NCBI RefSeq assembly: GCF_900091475.1
Contig: NZ_FMIB01000002.1
Coordinates: 1,116,001 to 1,180,000, forward strand
Length of the DNA stretch: 64,000 nucleotides
Direction of reading: 5' to 3'
DNA from: Micromonospora chersina
Lineage (GTDB): Bacteria > Actinomycetota > Actinomycetes > Mycobacteriales > Micromonosporaceae
The position numbers and the translations under genes were made by a program. The stretch's first letter is position 1. Every line of letters starts with the position of its first letter. The notes beneath the pieces are model-generated. The model saw only the letters and a list, made by a program, of their open reading frames with translations, did no database searches and was not told the DNA's origin. Positions 19,691 through 46,388 of the stretch are shown here, in pieces.

Positions 19691-19804
19691 ACCAACCTTT
19701 CACAAGTGAGCAGCGGCTCGCCTCCTAACCTTGGCTCACCGAAACAACTGGCCGTTACCTTGTCTCGTCGCGGTGCAGTTGATGAAGCTAGATACCTTGA
19801 GCCC

Positions 19805-25888: not shown

Positions 25889-26041
25889 GGCGCGGCCTCC
25901 TGCTTGATCAGTCGAGGACGGTGGCTGCGACCCTACCGGTCGCCTGCGTGCCGGGGCTGTCCGGCAATGCGCCTTCGAGCCTTGCTGATGCTTGTGACGG
26001 AGAACGGGCCGGACGACGGTCAGCACCAGAGGGCTGTTGCG

Positions 26042-27625
26042 TCAGTTCGGCCGCCTGCCCGAGAGGTGCCAGGCGAGCAGGGCCGCTCCAGACGTTAAGT
26101 GGTCGAACCGTTCAATCTCCTGAGCAACATCGATGATCTGCTCGAGAAATCCTTCGTGTGCGCCGGTGTCGGGATCTTCCGCCGTGCGTTTGACGTACAA
26201 GATGATGAATGTCGCTGGGCGCCCGTCGGCCTTCGGGCGGATGACGCGCCCCATGCGCTGGATCATCTGGCGCTTGCTTCGGCTTCCCGCGATGATGACA
26301 CCGACATCCGCCTGCGGGACGTCGATCCCCTCATCCAAGAGTCGAGGGGCCGCCAACACCTTCGCATGCCCGTCCTTGAACGCCGCCAACCGTTGCTTGC
26401 GTTCCAGCGTGTTCATGCCGCTGGTGATCTCCATCGCCTGCAGACCGCTCGCCCGCAGCACCGCCGCCGCGTGTTCCGCACTCCGCCTGGTTTCGCCGAA
26501 CACCAGTCCCCGGTCCGCGGTGGCCAATACCGGCGCCAAGTAGGCAAGCGCCACCTGCTTGTTCCAGCACTCGGCTAGGACCTCACGCCTTTTGGTGAAG
26601 GCGTCTAGGTACTTGCGGGCATCCCAGGCCGCACGCGAGTCCCCTTCTCCGCCGACGCGGAGGTGGTTGACCGAGGCCATGAACTCACCGAAGGGTTCCG
26701 CCGGGCAGCCGTGGTCGACGATCAGACGGCGTCGAAGACGTCTCACGCGATCGTCGTACTCGTCATGGGCTTTCTGTTCGTCTGGAGTGAAGTCGACTCC
26801 CACGAAGGCGACACGGAAGGGCGCCAAGATCTCGTCGGCCAGCCCGCGATCGTAGCTGCAGTCTGCCACCACGCCGCCGAAGTAGGGTTCCAGGTGCTCG
26901 ATGAAGCCATTGTCAGGTCGGTCGTACGTCGCCGTCAGCCCGAGCCGGCCATCGAAGTCCGGCTCCAGAGCACGCGCGAAGTATGGTGCCCCATAGCGGT
27001 GCACCTCGTCGGCAACCAGCAGGCCCGACATGCCGAGCGGCAGCATCTGGTATTTGGCTGCGGAGTTCACGATGGCGATCACGATGGAATGGTCGTCGAG
27101 CCCGTCCTCGTGGCCGTCCCCGTGTCGACCGACAAGAACACCGTGAAGATCCCGTCGCAACACGTCATACCACTGGTCGAGCAGCTCACGACCGGGCACG
27201 AGCACCAGCACCCTCTCGCCGGCATCCACCGCGGCCGCAGCTGCCAGCACACCCACGGTTGTCTTGCCCGTCCCGGTGACTGCCTCCACCACGCCTCGTC
27301 GGTCGTGAGCTCGCCATGCGGCCAACGCCTCAATCTGCCAGGCCCGCGGCTCCTTGCCGACGTAACACCTGGGCAGCGCTGCCGGCACCGCGGCAGGAAC
27401 TGCTCCGCCGTTCCAGGATGCCGCTCCAGTCAGTCGCCAACGCGGCGGTGTGGCGCCGTCACGAGCGAAGGTCGCTGTGTTGGCGTACAACGTCCGGTTT
27501 ACGTCCGTCGTGGTCAGCCCATGCAGACCCATGCGCTGCAGCCCGGCGAGCAGTTGCCGCTTGTTCTGACCTGGCGTCGCCGCCAGCAACTGCCACAGCG
27601 CCACCCACACCGGCCCCGGCTGCAT
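26042..27625 (-). CDS. XPB/SSL2-like DEAD/DEAH-box helicase
   Basis: The ATG at 27625 has GGGGAGGGG just upstream; a longer frame overlapping the previous gene lacks such a site. The 527-residue protein has a short winged-helix-like N-terminus (WQLLAATPGQNKRQLLAGLQ), Walker A VTGTGKTT near 112-119, the DEVH box near 205 (VADEVHRYG), GLTATYDRP as motif III and QRMGRVIRPK as motif VI. This is a superfamily 2 motor with the layout of XPB-like and type I/III restriction helicases. There is no nuclease domain of its own. It starts 68 bases after the GmrSD-like gene and is probably co-transcribed. Confidence 0.8.
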   Translation of the reverse strand: MQPGPVWVALWQLLAATPGQNKRQLLAGLQRMGLHGLTTTDVNRTLYANTATFARDGATPPRWRLTGAASWNGGAVPAAVPAALPRCYVGKEPRAWQIEALAAWRAHDRRGVVEAVTGTGKTTVGVLAAAAAVDAGERVLVLVPGRELLDQWYDVLRRDLHGVLVGRHGDGHEDGLDDHSIVIAIVNSAAKYQMLPLGMSGLLVADEVHRYGAPYFARALEPDFDGRLGLTATYDRPDNGFIEHLEPYFGGVVADCSYDRGLADEILAPFRVAFVGVDFTPDEQKAHDEYDDRVRRLRRRLIVDHGCPAEPFGEFMASVNHLRVGGEGDSRAAWDARKYLDAFTKRREVLAECWNKQVALAYLAPVLATADRGLVFGETRRSAEHAAAVLRASGLQAMEITSGMNTLERKQRLAAFKDGHAKVLAAPRLLDEGIDVPQADVGVIIAGSRSKRQMIQRMGRVIRPKADGRPATFIILYVKRTAEDPDTGAHEGFLEQIIDVAQEIERFDHLTSGAALLAWHLSGRRPN

Positions 27626-27693
27626 CTGCCCCTCCCCGCTACCCAGAACTCTGCCGACTTCGCCGGCGATTCGCCACGCACCGTGCAACGAGG

Positions 27694-30828: not shown

Positions 30829-30860
30829 CCCGCCCCAGGAAGTCACCCCCCTGGGGCGGG
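30829..30860. terminator. Hairpin between convergent genes, bidirectional terminator
   Basis: CCCGCCCCAGG at 30829-30839 pairs perfectly with 30850-30860 across a 10-base loop. It lies between the end of the GntR-like gene (30798) and the end of the leftward methyltransferase gene (30872), where a terminator for both is expected. Confidence 0.7.
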
Positions 30861-30871
30861 CCGCGAAGAGA

Positions 30872-33800
30872 CTATCCCGCCGTAGTTGCGTTCGTGATCG
30901 CCGCGTGTCGAGGGCCATGCCCCGGAGGTGGGTTCACCGTCGACGTGTAGTTCTCACCGTCCGCGAGCGGGTTGATTAGGCTCACGCCCGCTGCAGCCAT
31001 CCGGTCGTACTCGGCGATGATCAGTTCCTTGGTGCGGTATCTGCCGTACCTCGCCTCATCCTTCCGCTTCACAATCGAAAACGTCTCCATGATGTAGTCA
31101 ACGTCATCGCGATCGATCCCGTAGAGGTGAAAGAACAACGCGTCCAACTCGGCCCGGATGATCGCACGCCGATCCTCATCCCATCGGAACGGCGCTCCGT
31201 CATCACCTAGATCATGGGCGAAGGGAGCCATATCACGCGCGGCGTAGGTAAGCTCCAAAACCCGCACGACGAGCCATGAACTATGAGACGTTAGGACATC
31301 CGGGGAAAGGGTAGGCAATTGCTGCCAGATGAACATACTCATACTTGCACCGCCAATCTTTTGGCGGCTCACGTAATCAAAAACAAACGACGTCTGACAT
31401 GCATACAAACAGGCCACAGCTTCATTTTTGACAGCCGGAAACGATAGCGGGAATTTGTTGCCGACTGCCGAACTAGGAAAGACGCTAGCGATGACTGTGC
31501 GTTCATCTGCAGCGCGGCAGATCTCACGCCATCCAAGAAGCCAGCCAGCCCTCCACCCTTTCGCCGACAATTTTTCTTCCACCTCCCGTCCCGAGACCCA
31601 GTACCGAGGCATTGTCACAACATCCGGGTCGTCGTGCTGATCGGGAGTCAGTCTAGGAAGCGTCCCCTTGTTTAACTGCTCTTGGGTAGCTCCATCATAG
31701 GTAGAGAACCTGTGGTCGTAATGATGCAGGAGCTTTGCTTCGCAAAGCGGCAACATGGTCGCTGCATCTCTAGTGAAGATGTTCCCCGTTAGGACCCAGC
31801 CAGCGGATTCCAGTTCCTCGCGGCTACGGAAGAGGTGAGAGTCGTTGGCCATATCGAACATCTTCATGAACGAGATGCCCCAGAGATTCCCCCTCGGATC
31901 ACCCTCCTTGACGAGGACCGGAACTCGGCGGTAGATGCCGAGCGTGATCTCGGCGTCTCGGCGGGAACGAAATACGGGGCAGGTGCCAGTGTTGGGATTG
32001 AGCAGTGTGATCTCTTCTGAGGACAAGGCGAATCTCTTGCTCGGGATCTGATCTACCTGGCGCACCTTGAAGACAAGAGAGATAAGCGCCGCCTGATACG
32101 CGGGGCCAGAAAGCGTCAAAAGGCAGAAACGGAATTGGTTATGCACTTCCGAGAAGACTTTATCTTCATTCTCGAAGTCATACAACGACACCAAGGATTT
32201 CCTCGTTACACAGTCGCGGAAAAACATCTGTGTGGTGGCGTCTGTGCCGATGCCCGTTGGTACGATCACGCCCATGCGTCCACATGGACCAATAAGGGCC
32301 CGGTCAGTTTCGGAGAACACTGCGTAGGTGTTGATGTCGCCTCGACCGGTGAGCGGGTAACGACCGCCATTGCGCAGGAAGTGGCTCTCACCTTCTGACC
32401 TCCGCTTGGCCGCCGCGAACTCCTCATACAACGAGCGGCGATCCTCGTCGTCCTTCAGTTCAGCGATGAGCCTCTTGCGCGCTGCCGCGTTCTTCGCCGT
32501 CGCGATGGCCTCGTCTCGCTGCGCGAAGAACTCTTGTTCTTGGAGCTTGATACGCTCCCACGGCGGGTTCCCCAGTACACAGGCAAACCCGCCAGACCAG
32601 CCAGTGGCGGGGTCGACGTTAGTACCGCTCCCGTGGACGTCGAAGACGTCGGGGAACTCCAGATGCCAGTGGAAGAAGCGGTATTGGTCGCGTAGTCGGA
32701 CGATCTCGTCGTGGGTCTCCCGCGACGCGGCCGACGCGTCCGGGTCCTCCAGCGCACGGAGGACTGCTTGGGTGACGGCTGGCGGTGCGTCCTTCGTCTT
32801 CCGCCACATGAATGCCGCGCACCAAGCGTCGGCGACGTGGCGGGCGCGCACGTAGTCCGCGGATTCCTCCCAGTCCCGATAGGCGGCCTCCTGGCTGCGC
32901 ACCGCGCGAAGGTCGTCCGACGGCGCGTTCAGGATGCGGCGTAGCCCGTCGGCGAAGACCCGGTTGGCGACCTTCACGCCTTCGTCCACGTCGAAGAGGC
33001 TCGCCTGCCCCGCCCGTTCCTGGAGATTTTGTTTCTCCAGGGCCTTAGCGTGCTTCCGGTCGTCGCCCTCGATCGGTTTGAACGCCTCGTCCGGGACGCC
33101 CTGCTTGAGTAGCACGGGCGTGGCGCCAATCAGGGCGTTGCCGTGCTTGACGTGCGCGTCCAGGAAGCTCAGCGGCTTGCCCGGCTCCAGTGCCTCCATC
33201 CACAGGGACACCTTGGCCAGTTCGACCGCCATCGGGTTGAGGTCGACACCGTAGATGCAGCGCGCAACGACCTCGCGCAGGGAGTGGCGGACGGCGTCGA
33301 TGGTCGGCTCGGGGTTGCGTTCGCGGACCGCCGCGACACGCTTGGCGATGCGGCGGGCCGCCGCGACGAGGAAGTGGCCGGAGCCGCAAGCCGGGTCGCA
33401 GACGGTGAGCGACAGCAGTTCGGAGACGATCGCGTCGCTCGGGTCGGGCTGCCCGACCGCGGTGGCGGCGTGCTCGCCGCGCTTAACCGCATCGTCGATC
33501 ACCGGATCGAGGGTCGAGTCGAGCAGGCAGTCGATCAGCGAGGACGGGGTGTAATAGGAGCCCGTGGTCTTACGGGTGTTGCCGGCGAGTTCGACCAGCT
33601 CGAAGGTGCGGTCGACCGCGCTGTGCTTCGGCACCAACTCCAGCAGGGACTCGTAAATCGAACCCAGCTCCTCGGCGTCCAGGTTGCGGTAGTCGACCGA
33701 TCGCCAACGGCGCGAGCCCGCGTCGCGCACCAGCGACAGGCGCCGGACGGCCGTCAACAGGTAGTCGTTCGACAGCGACTGGTCCTTCAGCGGGTTGTCC

Positions 33801-34942
33801 GCGACCGAGTCGTAGTCGAACAGGCCGCCGAGGCCGCGCAGGCCGAGCTCCGGACGGCCGTTCTCGTCGCCGAGCGCGTCTAGCACGATCCGCAGTGCCT
33901 GGTAAAGGTCGCTGTGCGTCGTACCCCGGCGGCGTCGCGCCTGTGCCCTCAGCCGGGCCGAGGAGAAGTAGGCGGCATACCGTTCGCGGGTCTGCTGGTC
34001 GGCGTCGGGGTGGTGCAGCGCGTCGCGGTCCTCGGCGACGAAGAGGAAGAGCAGCCGGTAGACCAGGCGCAGCAGGGCGTTGTGCAGGGCCTGCGGGTCG
34101 ACGTTCTCCCGCAGCGCGGCGTTGTCGGGGTGGCGCAGGAAGCCTGTGCCGAGTGCGGTGATCGCGTCCTGGACGCCCTTTCGGAGCTGGTCGAGCGCCC
34201 GGGTGCCGGCGGTGATCGCCTCGGTGCGCCACTTCTCCAGCCAGCATGTCGACGGTGCCACGCCCTCGGCAGCCTCGAAGCGGGAGACGTGCAGCAGGCG
34301 ATACAGCAGCACGAACTCGCTGAACAGCTCACCGTCGAAGATCGCCTCCAGGTCGAACTCGACGTAGGCGGCGGTGGCGAGCGCGCTGGAGTCGCGCAGC
34401 AGCCGCAGCTGGCGGCCGTTGGTGAGGACACCCCACAGGTGAGCGTCGGAGCGGTTCAGCAGCTCCTGCACCATCGACTGCGGCGGCACGCCGCCCGCGC
34501 CCGCAGGCCGCTTGTCCAACGCCGCGTTCCACGGGGCCAGGTGGATCGGCACGTGGCTCCAGCGGTGGCTGATTGCGAAGGTCTTGGCACCGTCGTCCGA
34601 GATGATGCCGCTGGCGCCGAGCGCGGTCAGCCGACCGAAGCCGAGTTCCGCGAAGAGGGGCTCCAGCCACTGCGTGGCCGCCACTCCGGTCGGGTCGGCA
34701 GGGGTTTCCGCCTCCGGGGCGACGGGGAGCCGGTCGCGCAGCTCCTTCCACACCGACTTGAGGTAGTCCCAGTGCCGCTCGGCGTCGTCCCGCACCGAGC
34801 GGGAGACGATCACCCGGTAGTCGGCGGGCTTGGAGCCGCTGACGTCCTTGCCCTCGGCGATCCGGACCAGCATGTCGGCGGGGATCAGCCCGCCGATAGT
34901 GTGGACGGCCGAGAAAACCTGGTTGTGGGCGGTGGCGGACAT
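30872..34942 (-). CDS. Eco57I-type N6-adenine DNA methyltransferase (DrmMI/PglX-like)
   Basis: The ATG at 34942 shares one base with the stop of the SNF2 gene (TGATG). The 1356-residue protein has a long N-terminal part, then the AdoMet-binding motif I DPACGSGHF near 517 and catalytic motif IV NPPWERI near 789 (N-P-P-W instead of the more usual NPPY/F). The C-terminal third looks like a target-recognition region. Size and motifs fit the large methyltransferases of DISARM (DrmMI), BREX/Pgl (PglX) and type IIG enzymes. No PD-(D/E)XK nuclease motif is seen in it. The third of three overlapping or closely spaced genes, it most likely marks host DNA so that the operon's helicase-nuclease ignores it; that is inference. 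Confidence 0.8.
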   Translation of the reverse strand: MSATAHNQVFSAVHTIGGLIPADMLVRIAEGKDVSGSKPADYRVIVSRSVRDDAERHWDYLKSVWKELRDRLPVAPEAETPADPTGVAATQWLEPLFAELGFGRLTALGASGIISDDGAKTFAISHRWSHVPIHLAPWNAALDKRPAGAGGVPPQSMVQELLNRSDAHLWGVLTNGRQLRLLRDSSALATAAYVEFDLEAIFDGELFSEFVLLYRLLHVSRFEAAEGVAPSTCWLEKWRTEAITAGTRALDQLRKGVQDAITALGTGFLRHPDNAALRENVDPQALHNALLRLVYRLLFLFVAEDRDALHHPDADQQTRERYAAYFSSARLRAQARRRRGTTHSDLYQALRIVLDALGDENGRPELGLRGLGGLFDYDSVADNPLKDQSLSNDYLLTAVRRLSLVRDAGSRRWRSVDYRNLDAEELGSIYESLLELVPKHSAVDRTFELVELAGNTRKTTGSYYTPSSLIDCLLDSTLDPVIDDAVKRGEHAATAVGQPDPSDAIVSELLSLTVCDPACGSGHFLVAAARRIAKRVAAVRERNPEPTIDAVRHSLREVVARCIYGVDLNPMAVELAKVSLWMEALEPGKPLSFLDAHVKHGNALIGATPVLLKQGVPDEAFKPIEGDDRKHAKALEKQNLQERAGQASLFDVDEGVKVANRVFADGLRRILNAPSDDLRAVRSQEAAYRDWEESADYVRARHVADAWCAAFMWRKTKDAPPAVTQAVLRALEDPDASAASRETHDEIVRLRDQYRFFHWHLEFPDVFDVHGSGTNVDPATGWSGGFACVLGNPPWERIKLQEQEFFAQRDEAIATAKNAAARKRLIAELKDDEDRRSLYEEFAAAKRRSEGESHFLRNGGRYPLTGRGDINTYAVFSETDRALIGPCGRMGVIVPTGIGTDATTQMFFRDCVTRKSLVSLYDFENEDKVFSEVHNQFRFCLLTLSGPAYQAALISLVFKVRQVDQIPSKRFALSSEEITLLNPNTGTCPVFRSRRDAEITLGIYRRVPVLVKEGDPRGNLWGISFMKMFDMANDSHLFRSREELESAGWVLTGNIFTRDAATMLPLCEAKLLHHYDHRFSTYDGATQEQLNKGTLPRLTPDQHDDPDVVTMPRYWVSGREVEEKLSAKGWRAGWLLGWREICRAADERTVIASVFPSSAVGNKFPLSFPAVKNEAVACLYACQTSFVFDYVSRQKIGGASMSMFIWQQLPTLSPDVLTSHSSWLVVRVLELTYAARDMAPFAHDLGDDGAPFRWDEDRRAIIRAELDALFFHLYGIDRDDVDYIMETFSIVKRKDEARYGRYRTKELIIAEYDRMAAAGVSLINPLADGENYTSTVNPPPGHGPRHAAITNATTAG

Positions 34943-37872
34943 CAGGCGTTGCCTCCGGCGGCGGTGGTGGAAGCGGGCAGGTAGACGTAGGCGCCGAGGA
35001 TGTCGGCGGGCTTCTGCGCGGTGACGGTGAGGCCGCGGACGATCTCGCCGGCGGCGCTGCGCACCCGGCGGTGCGAGGCGAGCAGGTCAGCAGCCAGTTC
35101 CTCGCCGTACGCCTCGAGGTGGTGGGCGACCTCGGGCAGCCCGTCGAGGATCCGGCTCATGGTGCGCTCGCCGAAGTCGGGGTCGGTGTTCTCGTCGGCG
35201 GTGGCGTCGAGCAGCTGCAGCGCGTCGTCGGTGGGTAGCCAGGTGGCGTTGGCGGGTGCGCCGGCGAAGGCGAGCAGCCGGGCGTCCTCGGCGACGAGCT
35301 GCCGCGTCCCGGTCCGGGACGGCAGGGTGAGGTGGAAACGGTAGCGGACCAGCAGAAGTGTCGTACGGCAGGTGACGGCCCTGGTGCGGATGACCCCGCA
35401 GCGGCGGGCCGGGCGCGGGCTGCTGACCTGGTCGTCCAGGGCGGCGTTGAGGACGTACCCGGCGAGCGCCACCACGGCCGGGTCGGTGCGGACCAGCGCG
35501 GCCTCGCCGCGCGCGACGGCGGCCGTGGTGCGGAACGGGACCTTGCGGCCCTGCTCGACGTCGCCACCGAGCACCGGGGCGAGCGCGTCGCGGAGGCCAG
35601 CGGGGGTGCCGCTCAGGTCGGCGGTGAAATCGCTGGTTCCGCCCGGCTCGTCGCGGAGCACCCCGTCGAGCGCGCGCAACGCCTGGCGTACGAAGTCTCG
35701 GATCTCGGCGGCCCGGCCGAGCGTGTCGCGAATGGCGGCGACCTCTTGGGCCACCTCTTCGGGGCGGATGGTGTGCTGGGCGAACCGGGACCGGGAGGTC
35801 TTCTCCTTCTCGGCGGCGGACTGCCACTCGGTCGCCAGGGCGGCGGCCCTCTTGTCGATGGCGCGGTACTCCTCGACGTCAAAGAGGCTGCCCTGTTCCT
35901 GCTCCTGGCCGCGCAGCAGCAGCCACTCCACGATCGCGTCGGTCACGCCCTGTGAGGCGGCGTCGGGGACGGAGACGGAGACGCCGAGGTCCTTGCGGAT
36001 CTGCCGGTGCTTGCGGATGAGGACGTCGAGAACCTTGCCGTCGATGCCGTTATCGCTGCCCCAGAGGGTGATGACCCGGACCTCGTCGCGCTTCTGGCCG
36101 TATCGGTCGACGCGGCCCTCCCGCTGGTCGTGGCGGGTGGGGTTCCAGGCGAGGTCGTAGTGGACGACGGCGTCGAAGTGGTGCTGGAGGTTGACGCCCT
36201 CGGACAGGCAGTCGGTGGCGATCAGGACGCGGCGGGCGTCGGACGCCTCGCCGGCCGCCTCCGCGAGTTCCTCAATGCGCTGCAGGCGCTGCTGCGGGGA
36301 AAGCGTGCCGGTGACGGCGCGTACCACGACCTTCTTGCCAAGTGCGCCCTCCAGGTGCTCGGCGACGTACTCCGCTGTGGGAATGTAGCGGCAGAAGACG
36401 ATCGGGTGGTAGCCCTCCTTGAGCAGATCCTTGAGGTGCTTAACCAGCGCGGCAAGCTTCTTGTCCTCGGCCGGCCCCTCTAACTCGGCCGCCCGGTCCG
36501 CGAGTTCGGCCAGCCGCCGACCGGCGTCGACATCCACACCGCCGGCCTCGGCGCCGGGCGCGACATCCAGCCCCTCCAGCGCGTCAGTGTCGGAGAAGTC
36601 GCTGGTCAGCGGGGCACCGAGCCGATCGGCCTCCTCGGCGCTGACAGCGGTCGCGGTCGCGGAGCGCGTGCGCAGGGTCTGCGCGGCGGCGCGCGGCGAC
36701 GACACTAGCGACCGCAGCAGCGCGATCGCCGACCACCAGGCGATCCGGGCCTCCCGACGGCCCTGGCTGTCCGCAGCGGCGACCCGCTCGCTGGCGTACG
36801 CGATGGCGTCGTCGAGCAGCGCCCGGTAGGCCGGGGAAAGCTTGTAGGTCTCGTCCTTGAAATGCCGGTCGGACGGGAAGGCCGTCTCCTCGGCGAGGCT
36901 GTTGTCGGCCAGGCCGTCTTCCTTGGTGAGGTACTGCCGCACGTCGGCGCGCTTGCGGTGCACGAAGTGCCGGGCGAGCATCCGCCGGCCGGACTCTGAG
37001 CCGAGGTCGACGGTGGCGAGTTCCGGCCGGACCAGGCCGAGGAGGTTGCGGAAGGCGCTCTCCTTGCCGCTGTGCGGGGTCGCCGTGACCAGCAGCAGGT
37101 GCCGCTCGGTGTCGGCGGCGACGCGCTGCAGCAGCTCGAAGCGGAGCTGGTTCTGCGCCGAGGTGTTGTCGTCGGCGGCGACGCAGGTGTGGGCCTCGTC
37201 GACGATGACCAGGTCCGGGCAGTGGCGGACGAAGTCGTCGCGGTGCCGGGTCGACTTAATGAAGTCGGTGGAGACGATGACGTGCGGGTGCCGGTCGAAC
37301 AGCGACTGGCCCAGGTCCAGCGCGCGCTCCAGCTTCGACACAGTGGAGGCGAGCACCAGCTCGGCGTCGATACCGAACTTGGTGCGCAGCTCCGCCTGCC
37401 ACTGCTCGGCGAGGGCCGGTGAGCAGAGCACGGCGAGTTTGCTCGCGCTCCCCTGGGCCAGCAGCTCGCTGGCGATCAGGCCGGCCTCGACGGTCTTGCC
37501 GATACCGACGTCGTCGGAGATCAGCATGCGCACAGTCTTTTGCCGCAGTGCCATCAGTAGTGGCACGAGCTGGTAGGCGCGGGGCTCGACGGCGATCCCG
37601 GCGAGCGAGCGGAACGGGCCGGCACCGGAACGGAAGCCGATCCGCAGCGCCGACCGAAGGAGGCCCGCCGCGTACGCGTCACCGAGGTCGGAGGGCGCGG
37701 GCGGGGCGAACTCGGCGCTCTTCACCTGCTCGAAGGCCGGGAAGACGGCGGCGATGTCGTCGTCGGCGCCGCCCAACGGTCGCAGGACCAGCATGTCGGG
37801 GGCGCTTTCGGGCAGCACGACCCAGTCGCGGCCCCGGGCGGAGACCAGCGTTCCGGCGCTGAAGGTGGTCAT
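34942..37872 (-). CDS. SNF2-family helicase (DrmD-like)
   Basis: The ATG at 37872 has a GAGGAA ribosome-binding site; the frame further upstream overlaps the previous gene and has no coding look. The 976-residue protein carries the SNF2 motor: motif [14 protein letters not shown] near 116-128, motif [11 protein letters not shown] near 219, motif [13 protein letters not shown] and motif [14 protein letters not shown] regulatory C-terminal region of about 350 residues follows. DrmD, the SNF2 helicase of class 1 DISARM, and the COG0553-type BREX helicase have this layout. It lies 46 bases after the kinase-helicase gene and overlaps the methyltransferase by one base, so the three form one operon. 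Confidence 0.8.
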
Positions 37873-37918
37873 GAAGCGGTTCCTCGCGTTGTCGTCATCG
37901 TGAGTGGCGGTCGGGTGG

Positions 37919-40900
37919 TCAGGCGCTGGCGCCGGTGCCGAAGTAGCGCTTGTTCTTGGTGGCGATCGCGGACCAGTCGGCGTTGTGTGGGAACCGCACG
38001 ACGTCCCAGCCCATGTCGAACAGGCGCTCCTCCGCTTCGCGGTCGCGTTCGGCGACCGACTCGTGCTCGTGGACGGGTCCATCGACGAACACGGCGACGT
38101 TGGCTCCGGGCAGGCGGTAGACGTAGTCGGGGCGGGCCAGCGCCTCGGTGATGAACACCTGCGCGTCGTCCGGCAGCCGCAGTCCGCGTTCCTTCAACCA
38201 CGCGACGAGCTTCCCCTCCAGCTTGGTGTCCGACTGCGCGGTGAGGCGGGCCAGCTGTTCGGTCCGGGATTCGCCCTCCCCAGTGGTTCGCGCCGCCCCG
38301 TGGGCGAACTGCAGCAGCAGGTCGCGGACCAGGTGCCGGTTGATCGAGTGGTGGTTGAGCTGGTTGCCATACGTCAACAGGCACTCGTAGCAGCCCCAGG
38401 CGCATGGGCGGTCCTTGTGCGGCCCGCCCCGGTCGGTGCCGTCCGGGTCGAAGTGGCAGATCTCGAGGGCCGTGGCGGCGGCGCGGGCCAGAGCCTCCGG
38501 GTCCGACTGCATGAGCCGGAGTACGCCGGCGCCGCCCTCGGCAGCCTCGGTGAACAGCATCCGGTCGCGAGGACCGTCGTCTGGCGGAAGCAGCTCGGTG
38601 GTGAGCTCCGAGTCCTCCAGTTCGAAGGCCGCCTCGATGCCGCGCTCGAGCGCGTACATCAGGGTGAGCGCAACGTCGTGGTCTAGCGGTTCGTCGAGCT
38701 TGAGGACGAGAATGTTCCGGCGGTCCTCGACGTACGGGATGACCCGCTTCTTGCGGCGCTTCTCGTTGCCGTCGGCGTCGACCACCGGCATCTCGCTGGA
38801 GTCGCCGGACGCCTCGCCGGCGTCGCGTTCGTTCATCCATCGCCCGTCGGCGGGGTCAAGCCAGAAGCCGTCGGGCTCGTCCTGCTTGGAGCGGACCCGA
38901 CCGATGTTGGTGATGCGGACGGTCGCCGAGTCGCCGTAGGAGAGGGTGGCGAGCCGGTCGTCGCCGTCGGAGACGATGGCGTCCTGCCGGCCTGGCCGGG
39001 CTCCGTGGTCTTGGAAGCGGTACGACGTGACCAGCCGGAAGCCTGCCCGGCGGCGCTCCTCCTCGTCGGAGGAGATCCGTTCGCGGCGCTTGGTGTAGAC
39101 GGTGTGCAGGTGTAGCAGGCCGTAGGTGGTGTCGCCCAGCGGTTCATTGCACATCTCGCAGCGCACGGCTCCGCCGCGGATGTCGTGGTGGTAGCCGCAG
39201 CTGGTGCATCGCCGGGCCTCGCTGGTCACCACCTCGCCGGCTGCGTCGGGTGGCAGCTGGATCCGGGTGACCTGGTAGCGGGCGCCCTCGTGGTAGATGA
39301 GCGCGCCCGGGCCGAACTCCCGGATTGCGAGGAACCGGGGGCGCTGCAGGTAGTCTCCGTCACCGGACCGACGGCCGGTGGTCGGCACGTACGCGGCCAG
39401 GGGCAGGCGCGGGAAGGAGTAGCCCGGCAGGAAGCCCTCGCTGGCCAGGTAGCGGTACGGGTTGAAGTCCGACAGCACCGACCTGCTCTCGACCGTCTCG
39501 TTCTTCAGCAGGTTGAGCTGCGTCTCGGCTTCTTTGCGGCGGCCGACGGCGATCCTTCGGTCGCGCTCGGAGAGAGTGTGGTCGAGGACGCGGCGGTTCT
39601 GCTCCGCCTGGTCGACCAGCGCCGCGCGGAACAGGTCCCGCCAGCGGTCGAACGCGCGGTTGAACCGCTCCGGCGTGGTCCGGACCGTGTCTTCGATCCA
39701 ATTGTCGTCCCACCAGGTCGACTTCTCGAAGTCGGGCAGCAGACCGGCGAACACCGTGCGGGCCGCAGCGGCGGCGCGGTTTTGCGCGTAGGTGTCCTGA
39801 AGCGCCGCGGCGACGTGGTCCTGCAGCTCCAAAGCCGGGTCGGGGCGGCGGCTGTCCTCCAGGTAGCTGATGTCGATGATCTCGGGGATCGCCCGGCCCA
39901 GCTTCAGGCCCGCCTCGGCCAACCAGACGGCGTGCACGTGCGAGCGCACCAGGTCCTCGTTGGCCAGGTCCAGCCGTGGAGGTGCCACTGCCCCCGCCAC
40001 CATCCGCTCCGAGCGCCGGAAGTAGTACTGGTCGTGGCTGTTGCCGGTGGCGCAGTAGGTGGTGACCAGCGCCGGTTGCCCCGACCGTCCGGCCCGGCCA
40101 CTTCGCTGCGCGTAGTTGGCCGGCGTCGGCGGTACGTTGCGCATCATGACGGCGTTGAGCTCGGAGATGTCGACGCCGAGTTCCATGGTCGGGGAGCAGT
40201 AGAGCAGCTTCAGCTCCGCCTTGCGGAAGGCCTCCTCTCGCCGCTCCCGCTCGACGGGGTCGACCTGTGCCGTGTGTTCTCGGGCCGTCAGTCCGGCAAG
40301 GGTGCCGGCCGCCGTCCGGTACAGCTCGCGGAAGAACGTGTTGACCCGAGGACCGTCGCCGCTGGCATAGGTCCGCGTCAGCGGGTCGTGGCTGCCGGTC
40401 TGACCCGTCCCGGCACGCCAGATGAGCGCGGCCGCAGAGACCTGGTACCCGGTGATTGGCGTGCCGGCAGAACGCCGGTAGCGACCAACGCGTTCCGGCG
40501 TCTGGACTACCTCGGTGACCTGGCCGCCTCGCTTGAGCACCTCCAGCAGGTCGGCGATCACTTCCTGGGCGTCGCTCCACGACAGGTCTGGGAAGTGCAC
40601 CCTGCGCAGGTACTTTCCGACCTTCCCTCGCCCGGAGAGGAACAGGTTGGACCGGTCCAGGCCCCGCCCGGAAGGCTGGGGGTAGGCCGCGCCGACCTTG
40701 GGCTTGTCACTGGCGGAGAGCACCCAGGGGTCGACGAGGCGTTCCTCGCTGGCCCGCTGGAGCGAGTCAAAGTCATCACGGAAGTACTGCACGTCGATCG
40801 CCAGGGCCCGGCGCATCTCGTCGAGCAGCACCCGCATGATCCTGACCCGCTCGTCAGGCTCCGCCTCGCGGAGCTTCTCGTGCGTGTTGGACCAGCGGTC

Positions 40901-43900
40901 CTGCTTGTCCGCGAGCCAGGCCAGATCCTGATAGTCGATCTTGAGGAGACCGGTCTGCTCCAGGTTGGGCATCGTGATGCGCCAGCCGCGTTCCAGATCG
41001 AGATACAGCCGGAACGCGATGACGTCCCGCAGGGTCTTCGCCGCCAGGCTGGCCAGCGACGGCGGGAGGTCCGCCTCCCGGGCGTAGTCGCCGAGGCTCA
41101 GTCCGAGCGCGGCGGTGACCTGGGTGGCGAGGTCCTCGTGGGTGATGCCTCTGTCGCCCGCTTCGACCACCGCCCGGTAGAGCGCGCCGCGAAGCTGCGT
41201 GACCTGGACGAAGTCGTTGAAGTGGCCGGCCTGCAGCGAGGCGTCCTGCCGGTTGTCCACGAAGGTGAGCAGCTTGCGCGCCTTCTTGCTCAGCGCCTCC
41301 GGCGGCGCCTGCATCAGCGACCGGACGATCGACGCCGACACCAGCGAGGTGGCCGAGGAGCGACCTTCCTGGTCGAGCGTCGCGAGCTTCGCGAAGTCCT
41401 TCCCCCGGGTCTGCTCGTAGCTCACGCCGCAATGCAGGCAGAAGAGGAACGGGGAGGGAATGAACGCCGCCCGCAGGTCGCCATGGCCTTCCCAGCCCTG
41501 CGGGTTGACCGTGATCGCCTGAGGCAACCGCTGCCGGTAGGAGCTCTTGACCACCTCCCGGCCGCCGGAGTCAACCTCTAACCACGATTCGGGGATCCGG
41601 CGGGCCTCGATCGCCTCCTCCTCGTTGGCCGGCCAGGGTCGATCCGTGTCGATGTGGAGGTAGCCGTCGTCGCCGCGGCCGCCGGTGGCGGCGGTGTCCC
41701 GGCGCGGTGCGTATACGACCTTGCCGTCCTTCTCAGATCGCCACACGGTGAGGTACTCCTGGCCGCACTCCCGACAGAAGGCCAGCGGCAGGAGGATCTT
41801 GCCGTCCGACCCCGGCAGGACAAGCTGGTACTCGCGGGTGAGGTGCCGCGTGAGCTCGTCCTCGAGGGTGACGTACACCGTGTCGCCCTTGGACAGGAAC
41901 TGGTGCAGGCGGAAGGCGAACAGCGGACGCTCGGTGACGGGGTGTCGGGCTTCGGACCCCGCCTTGAGGGTCGCCCGAATCGCTTCTCCGCATTCTGCAG
42001 CGGTAAGCCCACTCTGCCGAGCCAGCTCGAGCGCGGCGTCTTCGATCTTGGCCGGCTTCTGCCGCACCAGGTGCCCGCTAAGAGGATCGGTGGCGAGGCC
42101 GAAGCGGGTCTCGATCCAGCGGGCCAGCGGATCGTTCACCAGGTCGGCGTATGCCCGGGGAGCGCCAGGGGCCTTCAGCCTTTCGACCGGGACCGCGTCG
42201 GGCGCCTCCCCGGTCGCCCGGATCAGCGTCTCGCCGATCACGTTCTGGCCGCTGACCGGATTGCCGAAAAGGGTGGTGGCGACACGGGCCACCGCCACCC
42301 GCTGGTCGTCGACGGTGCCCTCGGTCGACATGGTGGCGGACGTGCCGATGCACTGAAGCTCAGCCGCCTGACAGGCTTCACGGACCCGTCGGATCAGCAG
42401 CGCCACGTCGGCGCCCTGGCGACCACGGTAGGTGTGCAGTTCGTCGAAGACGAGGAACTCTAGCCCTCGGGCCATTTTGATCAGCGACCGGCGGTCGTCC
42501 GGCCGGGTCAGCATCAGCTCGAGCATCACGTAGTTGGTGAGCAGGATGTCAGGCGGGTTGTCGCGGATCTCCTTGCGCCGCTCGTCGCTCTCCTGCCCGG
42601 TGTACCGGGCATACGTCACGGGCTCGCGCCCCGCCCCGTATCCGTCGCAGAGGTACTTGTCGAGCTCCTTGAGCTGGCTGTTCGCCAGCGCGTTCATGGG
42701 GTAGACGATGATCGCGCGGACACGCTTCGAGGCCTTCGGGCCCTCCTGTTCGCGCGCCTTGAGCACCTTGTCGACGATCGGAACGATGTAGGACAGGGAC
42801 TTGCCGGACCCGGTGCCGGTGGTGAGGACGTACGAGGTACCCGACTGCGCCTTTTCGATCGCCTCGCGCTGGTGAAGGTGCAGAGTCAGCGGTCGTCCGT
42901 CGCAGGAGGCGCCGCCCTCCGTCTTGTTCGCCTGGAAGATGCGCGCGCACTCCGGATGCAGCACACCCTCGTTGACGAGTTCCAGCATGCTGCCGCCGGA
43001 GGCGAAGAAGGGGTTCAGCGACAGCCACGGGTCGGGCCACTGCGACTTCGCGTCGAGGTCGCTCTCTACGAAATCCGCAATCCGGTCATTACGGATGGTT
43101 GTGCCGCCCTCGGTGAAGGCCCGGTAGTCGCTGATGAGCTGCCGGTGCACCTCGAACACGTCCATGCCGGGAGCCGGACGGGAGAGCGGCGCCGAAGCCG
43201 GACCGGCCGGCGGAGTGGCCGCAGCCCCGACGGTGTACGCAGCGCGGAAGTAGCCGACCGGGTTGAAGTCGTCCCAGCCGGGAACCTTGTCCTCCCCCTG
43301 CACCAACGGCAGCAGTGCCTCGCGGACGGCCGCCGCATCCTCCGGCCGCTCCGCCGGGTCCTTGGCGAGCAGCCGCTCGATGAGTCGTTCGAGACTGCGC
43401 GGAACGTCCGAGCGCAGCACCCGCACCGGCGGTGGGGCCTCCTCCAGGTGCTTCTGTCCCACCTCATGCGCCGAGCCGCTGTGGAAAGGCGGCACACCGG
43501 TCAGCAACTCGAACAGGACGCAGCCGAGGGCGTACAGGTCGGCTGCCTGGGTGACCGATGAAGCCCGGAATTGCTCGGGGGCCATGTAGCGGGCGGTACC
43601 CACCGTGACGCCGGTGCTGGTGAGCTTCTCGGCTTCGTCGGCGTCGATGATCCGACCCATGCCGAAGTCCAGGACCTTGACAAGTCCACCGCGCAACAGC
43701 ATGACGTTGGATGGCTTGAGGTCGCGGTGGATGACACCGGCAGTGTGTGCCGCGATGAGGGCGTCGGCGATCTGGGCACCGATAGCGGCGACCCACGAGA
43801 TCGGCAGTTGCGGCTGCTCGGAGATCAGGTCCCGCAGCGTCTCGCCGTCGAGGAACTCCATGGCGATGTATGGAAGGCCGGACGGATCGACACCTCCCGC

Positions 43901-44179
43901 GATAGAACGCGGCAGGTTCGGGTGGGTGAGGCGACGCATGATGCGGGCCTCACGCTCGAATCTCTGGACCGCCTTGTTGTCGGCAGTCGAGTCGATGACC
44001 GCGCCGGACCGGCTTCGGAGGATCAGCTTGACCGCGGCGACCCGATCGGGAGAGCCCTCCGCCGCCTGCAGATCCTCCGCCCGGTGGACCTCACCCATAT
44101 TTCCCCTGCCGAGCGCGTTCAGCAGGCGGAACCTGTTCGCCACCAGTTCCATCTCCACGGCCACCCCTACATCCCCCAC
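37919..44179 (-). CDS. Ser/Thr kinase-DEAD helicase-DUF1998-nuclease fusion protein
   Basis: This is a 2086-residue protein. Residues about 15-290 are a eukaryotic-type Ser/Thr kinase with all key parts: GRGNMGEV (24-31), Lys51, HRDLKPSN (151-158), DFG (171-173) and MAPEQ near 197. After a linker comes a superfamily 2 helicase: TTGTGSGKS near 450, FDELHTYRGRQG near 580, and QRSGRAGRSGQ in the second RecA fold. DUF1998/MrfA-type cysteine clusters follow (CTSCGYHHD, CEMCNEP; later CAWGCYECLLTYGNQ). The last 100 residues resemble DUF559/Vsr-type PD-(D/E)XK nucleases (RPDYVYRLPGANVAVFVDG, then HE). Helicase plus DUF1998 equals the sum of DISARM DrmA and DrmB, and the kinase recalls PglW. It leads the operon. 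ATG 44179 is the most upstream plausible start; GTG/ATG at residues 8-10 are alternatives. Confidence 0.85.
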   Translation of the reverse strand: MGDVGVAVEMELVANRFRLLNALGRGNMGEVHRAEDLQAAEGSPDRVAAVKLILRSRSGAVIDSTADNKAVQRFEREARIMRRLTHPNLPRSIAGGVDPSGLPYIAMEFLDGETLRDLISEQPQLPISWVAAIGAQIADALIAAHTAGVIHRDLKPSNVMLLRGGLVKVLDFGMGRIIDADEAEKLTSTGVTVGTARYMAPEQFRASSVTQAADLYALGCVLFELLTGVPPFHSGSAHEVGQKHLEEAPPPVRVLRSDVPRSLERLIERLLAKDPAERPEDAAAVREALLPLVQGEDKVPGWDDFNPVGYFRAAYTVGAAATPPAGPASAPLSRPAPGMDVFEVHRQLISDYRAFTEGGTTIRNDRIADFVESDLDAKSQWPDPWLSLNPFFASGGSMLELVNEGVLHPECARIFQANKTEGGASCDGRPLTLHLHQREAIEKAQSGTSYVLTTGTGSGKSLSYIVPIVDKVLKAREQEGPKASKRVRAIIVYPMNALANSQLKELDKYLCDGYGAGREPVTYARYTGQESDERRKEIRDNPPDILLTNYVMLELMLTRPDDRRSLIKMARGLEFLVFDELHTYRGRQGADVALLIRRVREACQAAELQCIGTSATMSTEGTVDDQRVAVARVATTLFGNPVSGQNVIGETLIRATGEAPDAVPVERLKAPGAPRAYADLVNDPLARWIETRFGLATDPLSGHLVRQKPAKIEDAALELARQSGLTAAECGEAIRATLKAGSEARHPVTERPLFAFRLHQFLSKGDTVYVTLEDELTRHLTREYQLVLPGSDGKILLPLAFCRECGQEYLTVWRSEKDGKVVYAPRRDTAATGGRGDDGYLHIDTDRPWPANEEEAIEARRIPESWLEVDSGGREVVKSSYRQRLPQAITVNPQGWEGHGDLRAAFIPSPFLFCLHCGVSYEQTRGKDFAKLATLDQEGRSSATSLVSASIVRSLMQAPPEALSKKARKLLTFVDNRQDASLQAGHFNDFVQVTQLRGALYRAVVEAGDRGITHEDLATQVTAALGLSLGDYAREADLPPSLASLAAKTLRDVIAFRLYLDLERGWRITMPNLEQTGLLKIDYQDLAWLADKQDRWSNTHEKLREAEPDERVRIMRVLLDEMRRALAIDVQYFRDDFDSLQRASEERLVDPWVLSASDKPKVGAAYPQPSGRGLDRSNLFLSGRGKVGKYLRRVHFPDLSWSDAQEVIADLLEVLKRGGQVTEVVQTPERVGRYRRSAGTPITGYQVSAAALIWRAGTGQTGSHDPLTRTYASGDGPRVNTFFRELYRTAAGTLAGLTAREHTAQVDPVERERREEAFRKAELKLLYCSPTMELGVDISELNAVMMRNVPPTPANYAQRSGRAGRSGQPALVTTYCATGNSHDQYYFRRSERMVAGAVAPPRLDLANEDLVRSHVHAVWLAEAGLKLGRAIPEIIDISYLEDSRRPDPALELQDHVAAALQDTYAQNRAAAAARTVFAGLLPDFEKSTWWDDNWIEDTVRTTPERFNRAFDRWRDLFRAALVDQAEQNRRVLDHTLSERDRRIAVGRRKEAETQLNLLKNETVESRSVLSDFNPYRYLASEGFLPGYSFPRLPLAAYVPTTGRRSGDGDYLQRPRFLAIREFGPGALIYHEGARYQVTRIQLPPDAAGEVVTSEARRCTSCGYHHDIRGGAVRCEMCNEPLGDTTYGLLHLHTVYTKRRERISSDEEERRRAGFRLVTSYRFQDHGARPGRQDAIVSDGDDRLATLSYGDSATVRITNIGRVRSKQDEPDGFWLDPADGRWMNERDAGEASGDSSEMPVVDADGNEKRRKKRVIPYVEDRRNILVLKLDEPLDHDVALTLMYALERGIEAAFELEDSELTTELLPPDDGPRDRMLFTEAAEGGAGVLRLMQSDPEALARAAATALEICHFDPDGTDRGGPHKDRPCAWGCYECLLTYGNQLNHHSINRHLVRDLLLQFAHGAARTTGEGESRTEQLARLTAQSDTKLEGKLVAWLKERGLRLPDDAQVFITEALARPDYVYRLPGANVAVFVDGPVHEHESVAERDREAEERLFDMGWDVVRFPHNADWSAIATKNKRYFGTGASA

Positions 44180-44346: not shown

Positions 44347-44389
44347 GCCTGGCGGGGCGGGCAGGGGCGCCCTGCCCGCCCCGCCAGGC
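44347..44389. terminator. 19-bp perfect hairpin downstream of the HTH-methyltransferase gene
   Basis: Arms 44347-44365 and 44371-44389 are exact reverse complements (core GGCGGGGCGGGC), with a 5-base loop. It lies 86 bases after the stop of the leftward methyltransferase gene at 44475 and before the kinase-helicase start at 44179. It should end the first transcript and make the kinase operon independently transcribed. Confidence 0.75.
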
Positions 44390-44474: not shown

Positions 44475-46388
44475 TTACTCCTCGTCGGGTCGGATCGTGC
44501 CCCGGGCCAGCCCATCGGCGGTGAGCTGCACCAGCTCCGCACCGAGCGATGCCGCCCGTCGGATTGCCGACTCGAAGGTGTCGAGCCGCTGAAATGCCTT
44601 CCCGTGCACTCGCTGCTCAGCGGGCGGCAGGCGCCGCACCTGCGCGCGCCGGATGTCGATGCGCAGCGTCCCTGACAGGCTCGACGCCTGCCTCTCGTTG
44701 GCCGACGTCCGGAGCTGCCCGGCGAGGAACCACGAGTCGAGTGCCGCAGGGTTGGGCCTCAGCAGGTACAGGTTCCGCCCCAGCAGCGCGCCCTCGGACG
44801 TCACCACCCGCGCGGCGAGCTGCCGGGCGATTGTCGGCACCACCACGTCGCCGGGAACCAGCGAGATCTCCTGCCCGAGCCGGCCATCGTCCCGACCGGA
44901 CGGGCCTTCACCGTTCAGCACGTCCTGCACGGTCAGCACCGGCGGCCCGCCCGTTGACGGCGCGCCGCCCTCGGATGACGGCGCGCGTATGGGACCGATC
45001 AGTTGCAGTGCCCCAGCCCGGGCCAGCTCCCCCACCGACAGAAAGTCCCCGCCCGGCCCTTCGGGCGTGGGCGTGACCTGCGGCATCAGCGCCGGTAGGT
45101 CGCCGACGATGGCAGCGAGGCGCTCTCTGGTGCGTACCAGATGCTCTCCGGTGTCCTCGCCCCCGACGGCGGGTTGGCGGCGCGCGGGAGTGAGGTCGAC
45201 CTCCTCGTCGAGAAGCTCGATGACCGGCACCGCCCGGGCGAAGCCAGTCTCCTCGACGCCGGCGTCCGGCGCGGCGGTGAAGGCCCGCCAGACGACGAGG
45301 ATCCGCGCGTAGGTCTCGGCAGCGTCACCGGAAGCGGCGTCCACCAGCAGCGTCCGCGCCGGCAGCGGCGCGTCGGGCGACGGCCGCCGCAGCACCCACA
45401 GGTGCAGGGGTACGCCGTGCGGCGCGGCTACCCCCGGCGGGAGCGCGATGACGGCGCGCAGGGCGCCGCGGCGTAGCAGTTCGGCGCGGATGCGCCGGCC
45501 GGCACGGCGGCTGGCGACGGTGGGTGGCATCAGCAGGACGGCGTGTCCGCCGGCGCGCAGGTGGGCGAGGGCGTGCTGGGCCCAGGCCAACTCCGGTTCG
45601 GTACGCGGGGTGGTGCCGACGATCCAGCGGGGGTCGTGCCCGAGTTCCTCGTCGCCCCAGTTGGTGGCCCCGAACGGCGGGTGGCAGACGACGGCGTCGA
45701 AGGTGCGGCCGGCGAAGGCGTCGGCGCGCAGCGAGTCGCCGGTGCAGACCTCCCCTGCCACGTCGCGCAGCGCCAGCCAGAGTCCGGCGAGCCGGGCGAG
45801 GTCCTCGTCGATCTCCTGCCCGTAGGCAGAGGTGCAGCCGGCGCGGACGGCGGCGCGCAGCGTGGCGCCGGAGCCGGCTGCCGGGTCGAGGACGGAGCCG
45901 CCGCCGACGCCGGCGAGCCCGGCCATCAGGTCGGCCAGGTCATCCGGGGTGGCGAACGGGCGGCCCGGTCCGGGCGCGGAGAACCGTTGCCACAGCGCGT
46001 CGAAGGCACCCTGGGGTCCGAGTTCGTCGGCGAGCGCGTCGATGTCGGGCAGCAGCGGCTTGAGCTGCGGATCAGCTGATCGGCCGGGACGTTGACCGCG
46101 TTGCCGGGCCAGGAGCAGGGCGCCGACGGCGGCCAGGCCGGCGGCGGGTGACTGGCTGGCGGCGGCGAGGTGCCGCCACAGCCGGTCGGCGCTGGCCAGT
46201 TCGGGGAGTTTTCCCTGGGCGTGGAGCCACTGTTCGACCTGTCCCAGGTCGAACTCGGGGCTGGCCGCGGTGCCGCCTACGGGGGCGGGGAAGTCGGCGT
46301 GCCGTTTGCGCCAGTTGCTGACTGCGGCCCGACCGACACCGGCGAGCCGGGCGATCTCCGCTGCGGTGATGGTCGGTGTCTCCTGCAC
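44475..46388 (-). CDS. HTH-N6-DNA methyltransferase-like protein, HsdM type, with altered motif IV
   Basis: The GTG at 46388 lacks a clear ribosome-binding site, so the gene may be leaderless. The 637-residue protein starts with a helix-turn-helix (AEIARLAGVGRAAVSNWRKR, 9-28). Motif I DPAAGSGATLRAA lies near 165, and the catalytic-loop motif, normally NPPF/Y in N6-adenine enzymes, is HPPF (VVCHPPFGATNWG near 235). The C-terminal part resembles HsdM/HsdS-like helical and recognition regions. The Asn-to-His change at the catalytic position makes true methylation doubtful; AdoMet or DNA binding may remain. It is set apart from the kinase operon by a strong hairpin. Possible roles are a modified-DNA sensor or a regulator; uncertain. 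Confidence 0.75.
   Translation of the reverse strand: MQETPTITAAEIARLAGVGRAAVSNWRKRHADFPAPVGGTAASPEFDLGQVEQWLHAQGKLPELASADRLWRHLAAASQSPAAGLAAVGALLLARQRGQRPGRSADPQLKPLLPDIDALADELGPQGAFDALWQRFSAPGPGRPFATPDDLADLMAGLAGVGGGSVLDPAAGSGATLRAAVRAGCTSAYGQEIDEDLARLAGLWLALRDVAGEVCTGDSLRADAFAGRTFDAVVCHPPFGATNWGDEELGHDPRWIVGTTPRTEPELAWAQHALAHLRAGGHAVLLMPPTVASRRAGRRIRAELLRRGALRAVIALPPGVAAPHGVPLHLWVLRRPSPDAPLPARTLLVDAASGDAAETYARILVVWRAFTAAPDAGVEETGFARAVPVIELLDEEVDLTPARRQPAVGGEDTGEHLVRTRERLAAIVGDLPALMPQVTPTPEGPGGDFLSVGELARAGALQLIGPIRAPSSEGGAPSTGGPPVLTVQDVLNGEGPSGRDDGRLGQEISLVPGDVVVPTIARQLAARVVTSEGALLGRNLYLLRPNPAALDSWFLAGQLRTSANERQASSLSGTLRIDIRRAQVRRLPPAEQRVHGKAFQRLDTFESAIRRAASLGAELVQLTADGLARGTIRPDEE

Follow-up and report, generated by a model that had tools for sequence, protein, structure and literature searches.

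A probable ARMADA Type I-like defense operon with a Hanks-type kinase on its helicase-nuclease in Micromonospora chersina

The kinase-helicase operon

We analyzed a 64,000-nucleotide stretch of Micromonospora chersina DNA (contig NZ_FMIB01000002.1, positions 1,116,001 to 1,180,000; hereafter the window) in which three adjoining genes encode a YprA-family helicase-nuclease with an N-terminal Hanks-type Ser/Thr kinase, a SNF2 helicase, and an adenine DNA methyltransferase (Table 1). An earlier reading of the sequence (the original prediction) had placed these genes in one operon between two hairpins, with 46 bases between the kinase-helicase and SNF2 genes and a TGATG overlap between the SNF2 and methyltransferase genes. 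We confirmed each of these features on the minus strand: the three reading frames are open and co-directional (2086, 976, and 1356 amino acids), and both the gap and the overlap are exact. Neither hairpin was called by the terminator scan, which requires a T-run, and the true start of the kinase-helicase gene may lie up to ~10 codons downstream of the GTG.

Pfam recognized kinase (145 bits), DEAD (92.5 bits), Helicase_C (48 bits), and MZB/DUF1998 (35.7 bits, cut-off 24.2) domains in the kinase-helicase, and SNF2/Helicase_C and Eco57I methylase (61 bits) domains in the other two proteins. The Pfam nuclease match at the C terminus of the kinase-helicase scored 15.2 bits, under the cut-off of 38.2; the PD-(D/E)XK nuclease that had been predicted there was borne out as a Vsr-type domain, the C-terminal nuclease found in Type I of the disARM-related Antiviral Defense Array (ARMADA), and it is predicted to be active. 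All of the best 120 of 7988 database matches contained both a kinase and a helicase domain by Pfam, and their helicase parts were 73–93% identical to that of the window. The neighborhood survey that had been suggested found the same three-gene order, YprA > SNF2 > methyltransferase, in other actinomycetes: it holds in the window and in 57 of 63 complete named loci (21/21 with the kinase and 36/42 without it), the 17 incomplete loci among the 80 named ones having been left out of the count. Because the best-listed matches share kinase and helicase and the named loci keep the gene order, the operon is far from a chance arrangement. The 80 named loci, like the 122 distinct helicases discussed below, are similarity-ranked or best-N lists, and proportions among them are therefore not frequencies.

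Table 1. Features of the operon and its surroundings (window coordinates; residue numbers refer to the kinase-helicase protein)
Feature	Position	Strand	Details
YprA-family helicase-nuclease with N-terminal Hanks-type Ser/Thr kinase	37919..44179	-	2086 aa, GTG start
Kinase domain, residues 12-295	43295..44146	-	Lys51, HRD-Asp153, DFG-Asp171, activation-loop Thr187/Thr189, APE
Met339 (MDVF start codon site of kinase-less relatives), retained within the fusion	43163..43165	-	
SF2 helicase core, Walker A (residue 454) to motif VI (1358), DELH box (578)	40085..42820	-	
Zinc-cysteine region with MZB/DUF1998, residues ~1658-1934	38378..39208	-	
Vsr-type PD-(D/E)XK nuclease domain, residues ~1985-2083	37931..38227	-	
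BrxHII/RapA-like SNF2 helicase, ArmA-like	34942..37872	-	ArmA 144 bits
PglX/Eco57I-type adenine DNA methyltransferase, ArmB-like	30872..34942	-	NPPW motif; ArmB 103 bits
Hairpin 3' of the operon	30829..30860	-	11-bp perfect stem, 10-nt loop
Hairpin between upstream methyltransferase and kinase-helicase	44347..44389	-	20-bp perfect stem, 3-nt loop
Upstream N6-adenine methyltransferase	44475..46388	-	637 aa
ArmD-like UvrD helicase	23732..26026	-	4.8 kb downstream of the operon
Cargo between methyltransferase and UvrD, outside the core	26042..30237	-	GmrSD type IV enzyme 27694-30237, PbeA-like helicase 26042-27748

Relation to ARMADA and other named defense systems

In its main text, the preprint that named ARMADA (Bell et al. 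2025, PMC12458937) describes Type I as a YprA-like helicase that carries DUF1998 and, at its C terminus, a Vsr nuclease, together with a BrxHII/RapA-like SNF2 protein and a PglX-like methyltransferase, and reports it as plentiful in Actinomycetota. The window shares the YprA-DUF1998-Vsr helicase, the SNF2 protein, and the PglX-like methyltransferase, in the same order; it differs by adding the N-terminal Hanks-type kinase and by having an ArmD-like UvrD helicase downstream, a gene that the same main text gives for Type II (PMC12458937). Homologs of all four proteins of the Type II locus of Escherichia coli ATCC 8739, ArmA, ArmB, ArmC, and ArmD, are present in the window (144, 103, 171, and 388 bits), but the gene order differs: Type II reads ArmA-ArmB-ArmC-ArmD, whereas the ArmD-like gene of the window lies 4.8 kb off, behind two other genes. 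No kinase is annotated in the E. coli locus, whereas one or two separate kinases accompany many ArmC-ArmD loci of Micromonospora. The profile of the helicase clade aligned with the ArmC profile over 1494 columns (E 2.5e-93). Kinship with Type I in particular is suggested by gene order together with the ArmC and DruE scores. We conclude that the operon is very probably an ARMADA relative with activity against phage, and that it is likely an ARMADA Type I-like DNA-defense operon whose YprA helicase-nuclease gained a Hanks-type kinase, with the kinase as a control module. At the sequence level, this reading draws on gene content and order, the Vsr-type fold, the conservation of the catalytic residues of the kinase, the co-inheritance of the helicase with the SNF2 and methyltransferase genes, and the coupling to a nearby ArmD-like UvrD gene.

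The operon had originally been related to DISARM and BREX; a broad DISARM kinship stands, by way of ARMADA, while by the tests made the operon belongs to neither DISARM nor BREX. A plain derivative of DISARM Class 1, with DrmA and DrmB fused and DrmC replaced, is highly improbable. The window does share a DrmD-like SNF2 protein and a DrmMI-like adenine methylase with Class 1: the SNF2 protein scored 278–303 bits against DrmD, 198 bits against BrxH, and 144 bits against ArmA, and the operon methyltransferase scored 236 bits against DrmMI, 103 bits against ArmB, and 50–56 bits against PglX. However, the DrmD match is under the cut-off of 610, and the helicase scored 344 bits against DruE3, 310 bits against DruE1, and 171 bits against ArmC, compared to 47.5 bits for the best DrmA profile. 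The helicase and DUF1998 are undivided in one gene of the window, and, according to the main text of the ARMADA paper, this is the usual state of the YprA family and DISARM is the split form (PMC12458937); the claim of a DrmA-DrmB fusion is therefore unsupported. Type I as published there also fits the gene content, the gene order, and the nuclease. As predicted, neither DrmC nor PglZ, BrxC, or BrxL was among the listed PADLOC matches of the 23 window open reading frames (ORFs) scanned, which are the main ORFs rather than all of them.

Membership in BREX/Pgl was rejected on that missing PglZ match and on a PglW score of 58.7 bits against a cut-off of 990. The label of a Pgl-like kinase in the original prediction is likewise unsupported; the kinase scored 265 bits against the PknB model (cut-off 450), and PknB is its nearest solved structure (174 bits). 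MADS has in common with the window a methyltransferase and a Ser/Thr kinase in one defense locus, and PADLOC matched the kinase to mad6 (223 bits) and the upstream methyltransferase to mad2 (92 bits), but no full MADS set was seen. Membership was rejected here as well: NCBIfam MAD6 scored 153 against a cut-off of 460 and MAD2 scored 33.5 against 720 for the operon methyltransferase, and the upstream methyltransferase had no NCBIfam MAD2 match at E 0.001. Mokosh likewise has a kinase and a helicase within one defense system. Compared with Druantia, whose DruE profiles match the helicase, the window differs in its SNF2 and methyltransferase partners and in having a Vsr-type instead of a PLD nuclease; no DruH or other Dru partner was among the listed matches of the scanned ORFs.

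The least probable of the alternatives, a Dpd-type DNA 7-deazaguanine system, is barely credible. It would account for the match of PADLOC profile PDLC02853 ('DpdE'), which covers the SNF2 protein end to end with 1700 bits. By contrast, NCBIfam DpdE scored 185.7 against a cut-off of 500, lower than DrmD, the other listed PADLOC DpdE models scored 131 bits or less, and no DpdA or deazaguanine gene was among the listed matches of the scanned ORFs. PDLC02853 looks as if it had been built from ARMADA-like SNF2 proteins, and it is probably a mislabeled profile that will call ARMADA loci Dpd. Separately, plasmid pNOCA01 of Nocardioides sp. JS614, typed as conjugative, has genes annotated as drmA and drmB next to a kinase-less ARMADA Type I set and a McrBC-like pair.

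The original prediction was to fall if the same fusion was already catalogued under a named system, and on this point the outcome is split. The system itself is catalogued, as ARMADA Type I, but the kinase fusion is absent from the main text of the ARMADA paper (PMC12458937), which, its supplement aside, nowhere uses kinase, phosphoryl, STK, or serine. The passages of PMC13192584 and PMC12904381 that mention ARMADA name no kinase either. The open-access papers searched, the supplement of Bell et al. again aside, yielded no report of the kinase fusion, of kinases beside actinomycete ArmC-ArmD, or of an operon in Type I order that is coupled to ArmD; kinase-fusion proteins may be listed, uncommented, in Supplementary Table S1 of that preprint. 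The gene inventories of Type I and Type II are less separate than published, and actinomycete ARMADA comprises components beyond those of the E. coli locus used for mechanism work.

Fused and separate kinases

The kinase is present on 37 of 122 distinct helicases (the window included in both counts), and its carriers form one actinomycete clade. On the helicase tree the kinase carriers need two changes, one of them a loss in Streptomyces sp. AC1-42W (L070), which is nested inside the clade. The SNF2 tree (66 rows) and the methyltransferase tree (62 rows) also need two changes each, and one each without L070; the three genes have therefore been inherited together. Lys51, Asp153, and Asp171 are invariant in 38/38 rows (37 kinase carriers plus the window, which duplicates L015), and the median ratio of nonsynonymous to synonymous substitution rates across six congeners is 0.145 for the kinase and 0.152 for the helicase, compared to 0.58 for the linker. 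The activation-loop TST aligns with the TQT of PknB, whose threonines are autophosphorylation sites. Met339 is kept in 36/38 rows. An internal translation start at this codon, which would give a second, kinase-free product, was considered and rejected: the mean Shine–Dalgarno match length was 2.2 (37 loci) compared to 2.5 at control positions elsewhere within the same genes.

To place the fusion in wider samples, we counted the helicase in 34 of 397 genomes of the order, with the kinase in 14 of the 30 loci read (four unread loci, two of them partial, were scored as kinase-less by frame length), and in 23 of 396 genomes of the phylum, with the kinase in 2 of the 17 loci read, window included, and six partial loci excluded. 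Among the named loci 24/80 have the kinase. The kinase form is sporadic even within the genus, occurring in 11/131 Micromonospora genomes. All named carriers are actinomycetes except one contig from a Candidatus Melainabacteria metagenome-assembled genome, which groups with sequences of an actinomycete family (f15) and is probably misbinned. The Streptomyces genome that lost the kinase from L070 has a second copy elsewhere, with a frame of 2115 amino acids that is long enough for a kinase, and Streptomyces sp. BHT-5-2 has a kinase-fused ARMADA set on a 2.8-Mb linear megaplasmid.

A different role for the kinase would be that of a toxic or dormancy-inducing effector that phosphorylates host proteins (of translation or the cell wall) on infection and so adds an abortive layer to ARMADA. 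Its nearest solved relatives are PknB-type regulatory kinases, which have a wide target range; PADLOC matched it to PD-T4-6 (278 bits) as well as mad6, both kinases of other defense systems; and stand-alone relatives exist without an ARMADA core. We nevertheless consider this role unlikely: the attachment of the kinase to a helicase-nuclease that acts on DNA speaks for local targets, the operon outlasted the loss of one kinase copy (L070), and ARMADA II is described as non-abortive in the main text of the ARMADA paper (PMC12458937). In our estimate, it is reasonably probable that the system, and not some unrelated target, is what the kinase regulates.

Kinases also accompany other ARMADA loci as separate genes. 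Of 88 listed stand-alone kinases from 131 Micromonospora genomes, 35 have an ArmD-like UvrD within 25 kb, and for 22 of them the distance is less than 1 kb; the nominal probability of this proximity, 6e-62, takes related genomes as independent, and we rely on the count instead. In the 11 such loci that we read, fetched for a listed kinase near UvrD, ArmC, ArmD, and the kinase are consecutive in 11/11. ArmA and ArmB adjoin in L232, L235, and L240; elsewhere they lie apart from ArmC behind other genes or were not seen, and we therefore call the loci Type II-like. A search with ArmC, which is free of that selection, returned 33 loci in 31/131 Micromonospora genomes, 20 of class A (80–100% identity to the query) and 13 of class B (38–49% over most of the protein). 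The kinase directly follows ArmD in 16/20 class A loci. For class B, none of the listed kinases lies within 25 kb of any of the 13 loci and a downstream kinase was found in 0/6 loci read, and a kinase directly precedes ArmA in 6/8 loci with a readable upstream stretch (this count leaves out four loci not fetched and L277, of which a contig start gave just 4 kb). Kinases stand both before ArmA and after ArmD in class A L232, L235, and L268 with L240; the ten further class A stretches fetched showed no recognizable ArmA. On a plasmid of Streptomyces jietaisiensis, a protein kinase in the public annotation is followed by genes matching ArmA, ArmB, ArmC, and ArmD. The Lys, HRD-Asp, and DFG-Asp residues are kept in 20/20 kinases inspected, including that of the window.

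We also considered whether the fused kinase derives from a kinase of ARMADA II, but this was not borne out: in a tree of 76 kinase domains, the 24 fused ones do not group with those of stand-alone kinases. On this midpoint-rooted tree, control kinases of the same genomes fall between the groups, support for the fused group is 31, and nearly all stand-alone kinases come from one genus. In five of the Micromonospora loci (L230, L231, L233, L234, L238), several kilobases with other genes, such as a GmrSD-like one, separate ArmB from ArmC, as if cargo had been inserted.

Coupled genes and a possible control module

Beyond the genes that had been predicted, the operon is flanked by a methyltransferase upstream and an ArmD-like UvrD downstream. 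The UvrD is 35% identical to E. coli ArmD over 721 columns (388 bits, phmmer), and its gene probably starts near 25894 because homology starts at about residue 45. A close UvrD (67% identity or more) is present in 14 of the 397 order-sample genomes: 11/14 with kinase-form ARMADA, 0/20 with kinase-less ARMADA, and 3 others. With kinship ignored, the Fisher value is 1.3e-6 for kinase-form compared to kinase-less ARMADA and 1.5e-16 compared to all other genomes. In all 11 kinase-form genomes it lies downstream on the same strand. The corresponding search of named genomes covered 16 of 25 kinase-clade loci and seven kinase-less genomes (L087 left out), and found a close UvrD in 13/16 of the former and in 0/7 of the latter. 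In 11 of the 13 it sits downstream of the helicase gene, at a distance of up to ~35 kb and with strand and contig shared, and in two it is on another draft contig. The N6-adenine methyltransferase, a probable accessory gene of the system, is the next recognized upstream gene, across a gap of up to ~1 kb, in 9/11 Micromonospora kinase-form genomes (G316 and G823 being the others). When upstream genes were clustered, its family appeared in 12 loci, all kinase-form, two of them with the gene oppositely oriented. In L268, a methyltransferase with 82% identity to this upstream methyltransferase of the window stands first in the kinase-ArmA operon; in L235 a fragment of such a gene takes this place, at the edge of the stretch.

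The UvrD and upstream methyltransferase could instead be unrelated to the operon, merely fixed neighbors at the ends of a shared defense-island site, an alternative that we regard as possible while short of probable. The interval between the operon methyltransferase and UvrD measures 2.3–16.7 kb in the 17 loci mapped and holds changing cargo, type IV systems included (GmrSD and a PbeA-like helicase as in the window, or a McrBC pair or other genes elsewhere), and 10 of the 20 Micromonospora genomes with a close UvrD have no kinase-ARMADA. Nine of those ten, however, have a stand-alone kinase upstream of UvrD and co-directional with it, and in six of the nine a relative of the upstream methyltransferase directly precedes the kinase; the nine were picked because a listed kinase was near UvrD, and for the tenth genome (G011) no kinase is listed within 400 kb of UvrD. 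In the E. coli ARMADA II locus, moreover, ArmD belongs to the operon, and the coupling recurs in Micromonospora, Pseudonocardiaceae, and Streptomyces.

Extending the control-module reading beyond ARMADA, we tentatively suggest that a methyltransferase of the 44475–46388 family, a Hanks kinase, and an ArmD-like UvrD form an exchangeable control module placed on different DNA-destroying cores, with phosphorylation as a general licensing step, although this is less probable than the reading of the operon itself. If this were true, the kinase would be fused to YprA in Type I-like ARMADA, in Type II-like ARMADA it would have its own gene before ArmA, after ArmD, or at both places, the module would also be found around type IV or other effectors without an ARMADA core, and licensing would be activated in trans as helicases gather on foreign DNA.

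Self DNA is marked by adenine methylation in such systems. For the window operon, we propose that the methyltransferase(s) would mark self DNA, that the YprA and SNF2 helicases would load onto phage DNA that is unmarked, unwound, or replicating, and that the Vsr domain would cut the DNA that they engage. Once the helicases cluster on DNA, the kinase domains would phosphorylate each other in trans on T187/T189, and the activated kinase would then phosphorylate the helicase, SNF2, or UvrD partner; this phosphorylation might license cleavage only on real targets or release autoinhibition. Trans-phosphorylation of DNA-clustered kinases in particular is a speculative and rather unlikely version. 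DruE forms dimers and higher-order assemblies on single-stranded DNA, according to the passages of PMC13192584 that describe it, and an assembly of this kind would place kinase domains close enough to phosphorylate one another in trans. For E. coli ARMADA II all four genes are needed, as are the Walker A and B motifs of ArmA and ArmC, and the defense is non-abortive, as stated in the main text of PMC12458937. The strongest argument that phosphorylation matters is that one kind of system has its kinases at different places: fused, after ArmD, or before ArmA. This suggests a part for phosphorylation in turning such defenses on or off. A kinase-dead mutant would offer a single-residue handle on how ARMADA, DISARM, and Druantia spare host DNA.

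Several observations weigh against these interpretations. The phage tests in the main text of the ARMADA paper concern the E. coli Type II locus only, and none a Type I locus (PMC12458937). The His of the Vsr motif is conserved in just 26/38 rows, and BrxA was not among the matches listed in a fold search with the cut-out insert segment that follows RecA1. No kinase is present on 85 of the 122 helicases examined, and L070 lost its kinase while retaining the operon; the core therefore works without the kinase. Fused and stand-alone kinases are not joined on the kinase tree. Among the 11 class A loci with a kinase near UvrD, ArmB is present in 8/11 and ArmA in 3/11, class A loci G011, G036, G244, and G857 have no kinase after ArmD, and class B L282 and L283 have none before ArmA. 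Because the cargo before it changes in length and content, the close UvrD is an island neighbor and not an operon member, and it may serve the cargo. It is missing from G142, from the basal kinase forms G186 and G149, and from L068, L070, and L072, and its copy is interrupted or partial in 3/13 named genomes. Conversely, 5/20 kinase-less ARMADA genomes of the order sample have a distant UvrD (44–48% identity), and in kinase-less G357 and L091 a distant UvrD (46–47%) lies ~10 kb downstream on the same strand. The genomes in the UvrD counts are not independent.

Related arrangements were seen at other loci. In L197, L199–L202, and L205, which have no ARMADA core, a methyltransferase-kinase pair is followed by changing cargo (RecD-like PDC-S68, a Mokosh/Hhe-like helicase, GmrSD) and then by UvrD; in L205 (genome G168) a frame of ~2240 amino acids with weak SNF2 likeness (83 bits) lies between kinase and UvrD at 13475–20197 on the plus strand. 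In L241, L242, L209, and L210, UvrD is divergent from the kinase gene with a methyltransferase beyond the kinase, possibly a minimal three-gene set. Within the window itself, the GmrSD-type enzyme of the cargo has an extra C-terminal MGMT-like DNA-binding domain (26.6 bits, slightly under the cut-off). Further away, a minus-strand gene at 12610–16665 encodes a large helicase-nuclease with DUF4011, AAA, and MTES_1575 domains (candidate PDC-S37, 891 bits; Hhe, 469 bits) that is likely another defense gene of the island, and two neighboring plus-strand genes at 16–5069 have weak nSTAND-like ATPase matches.

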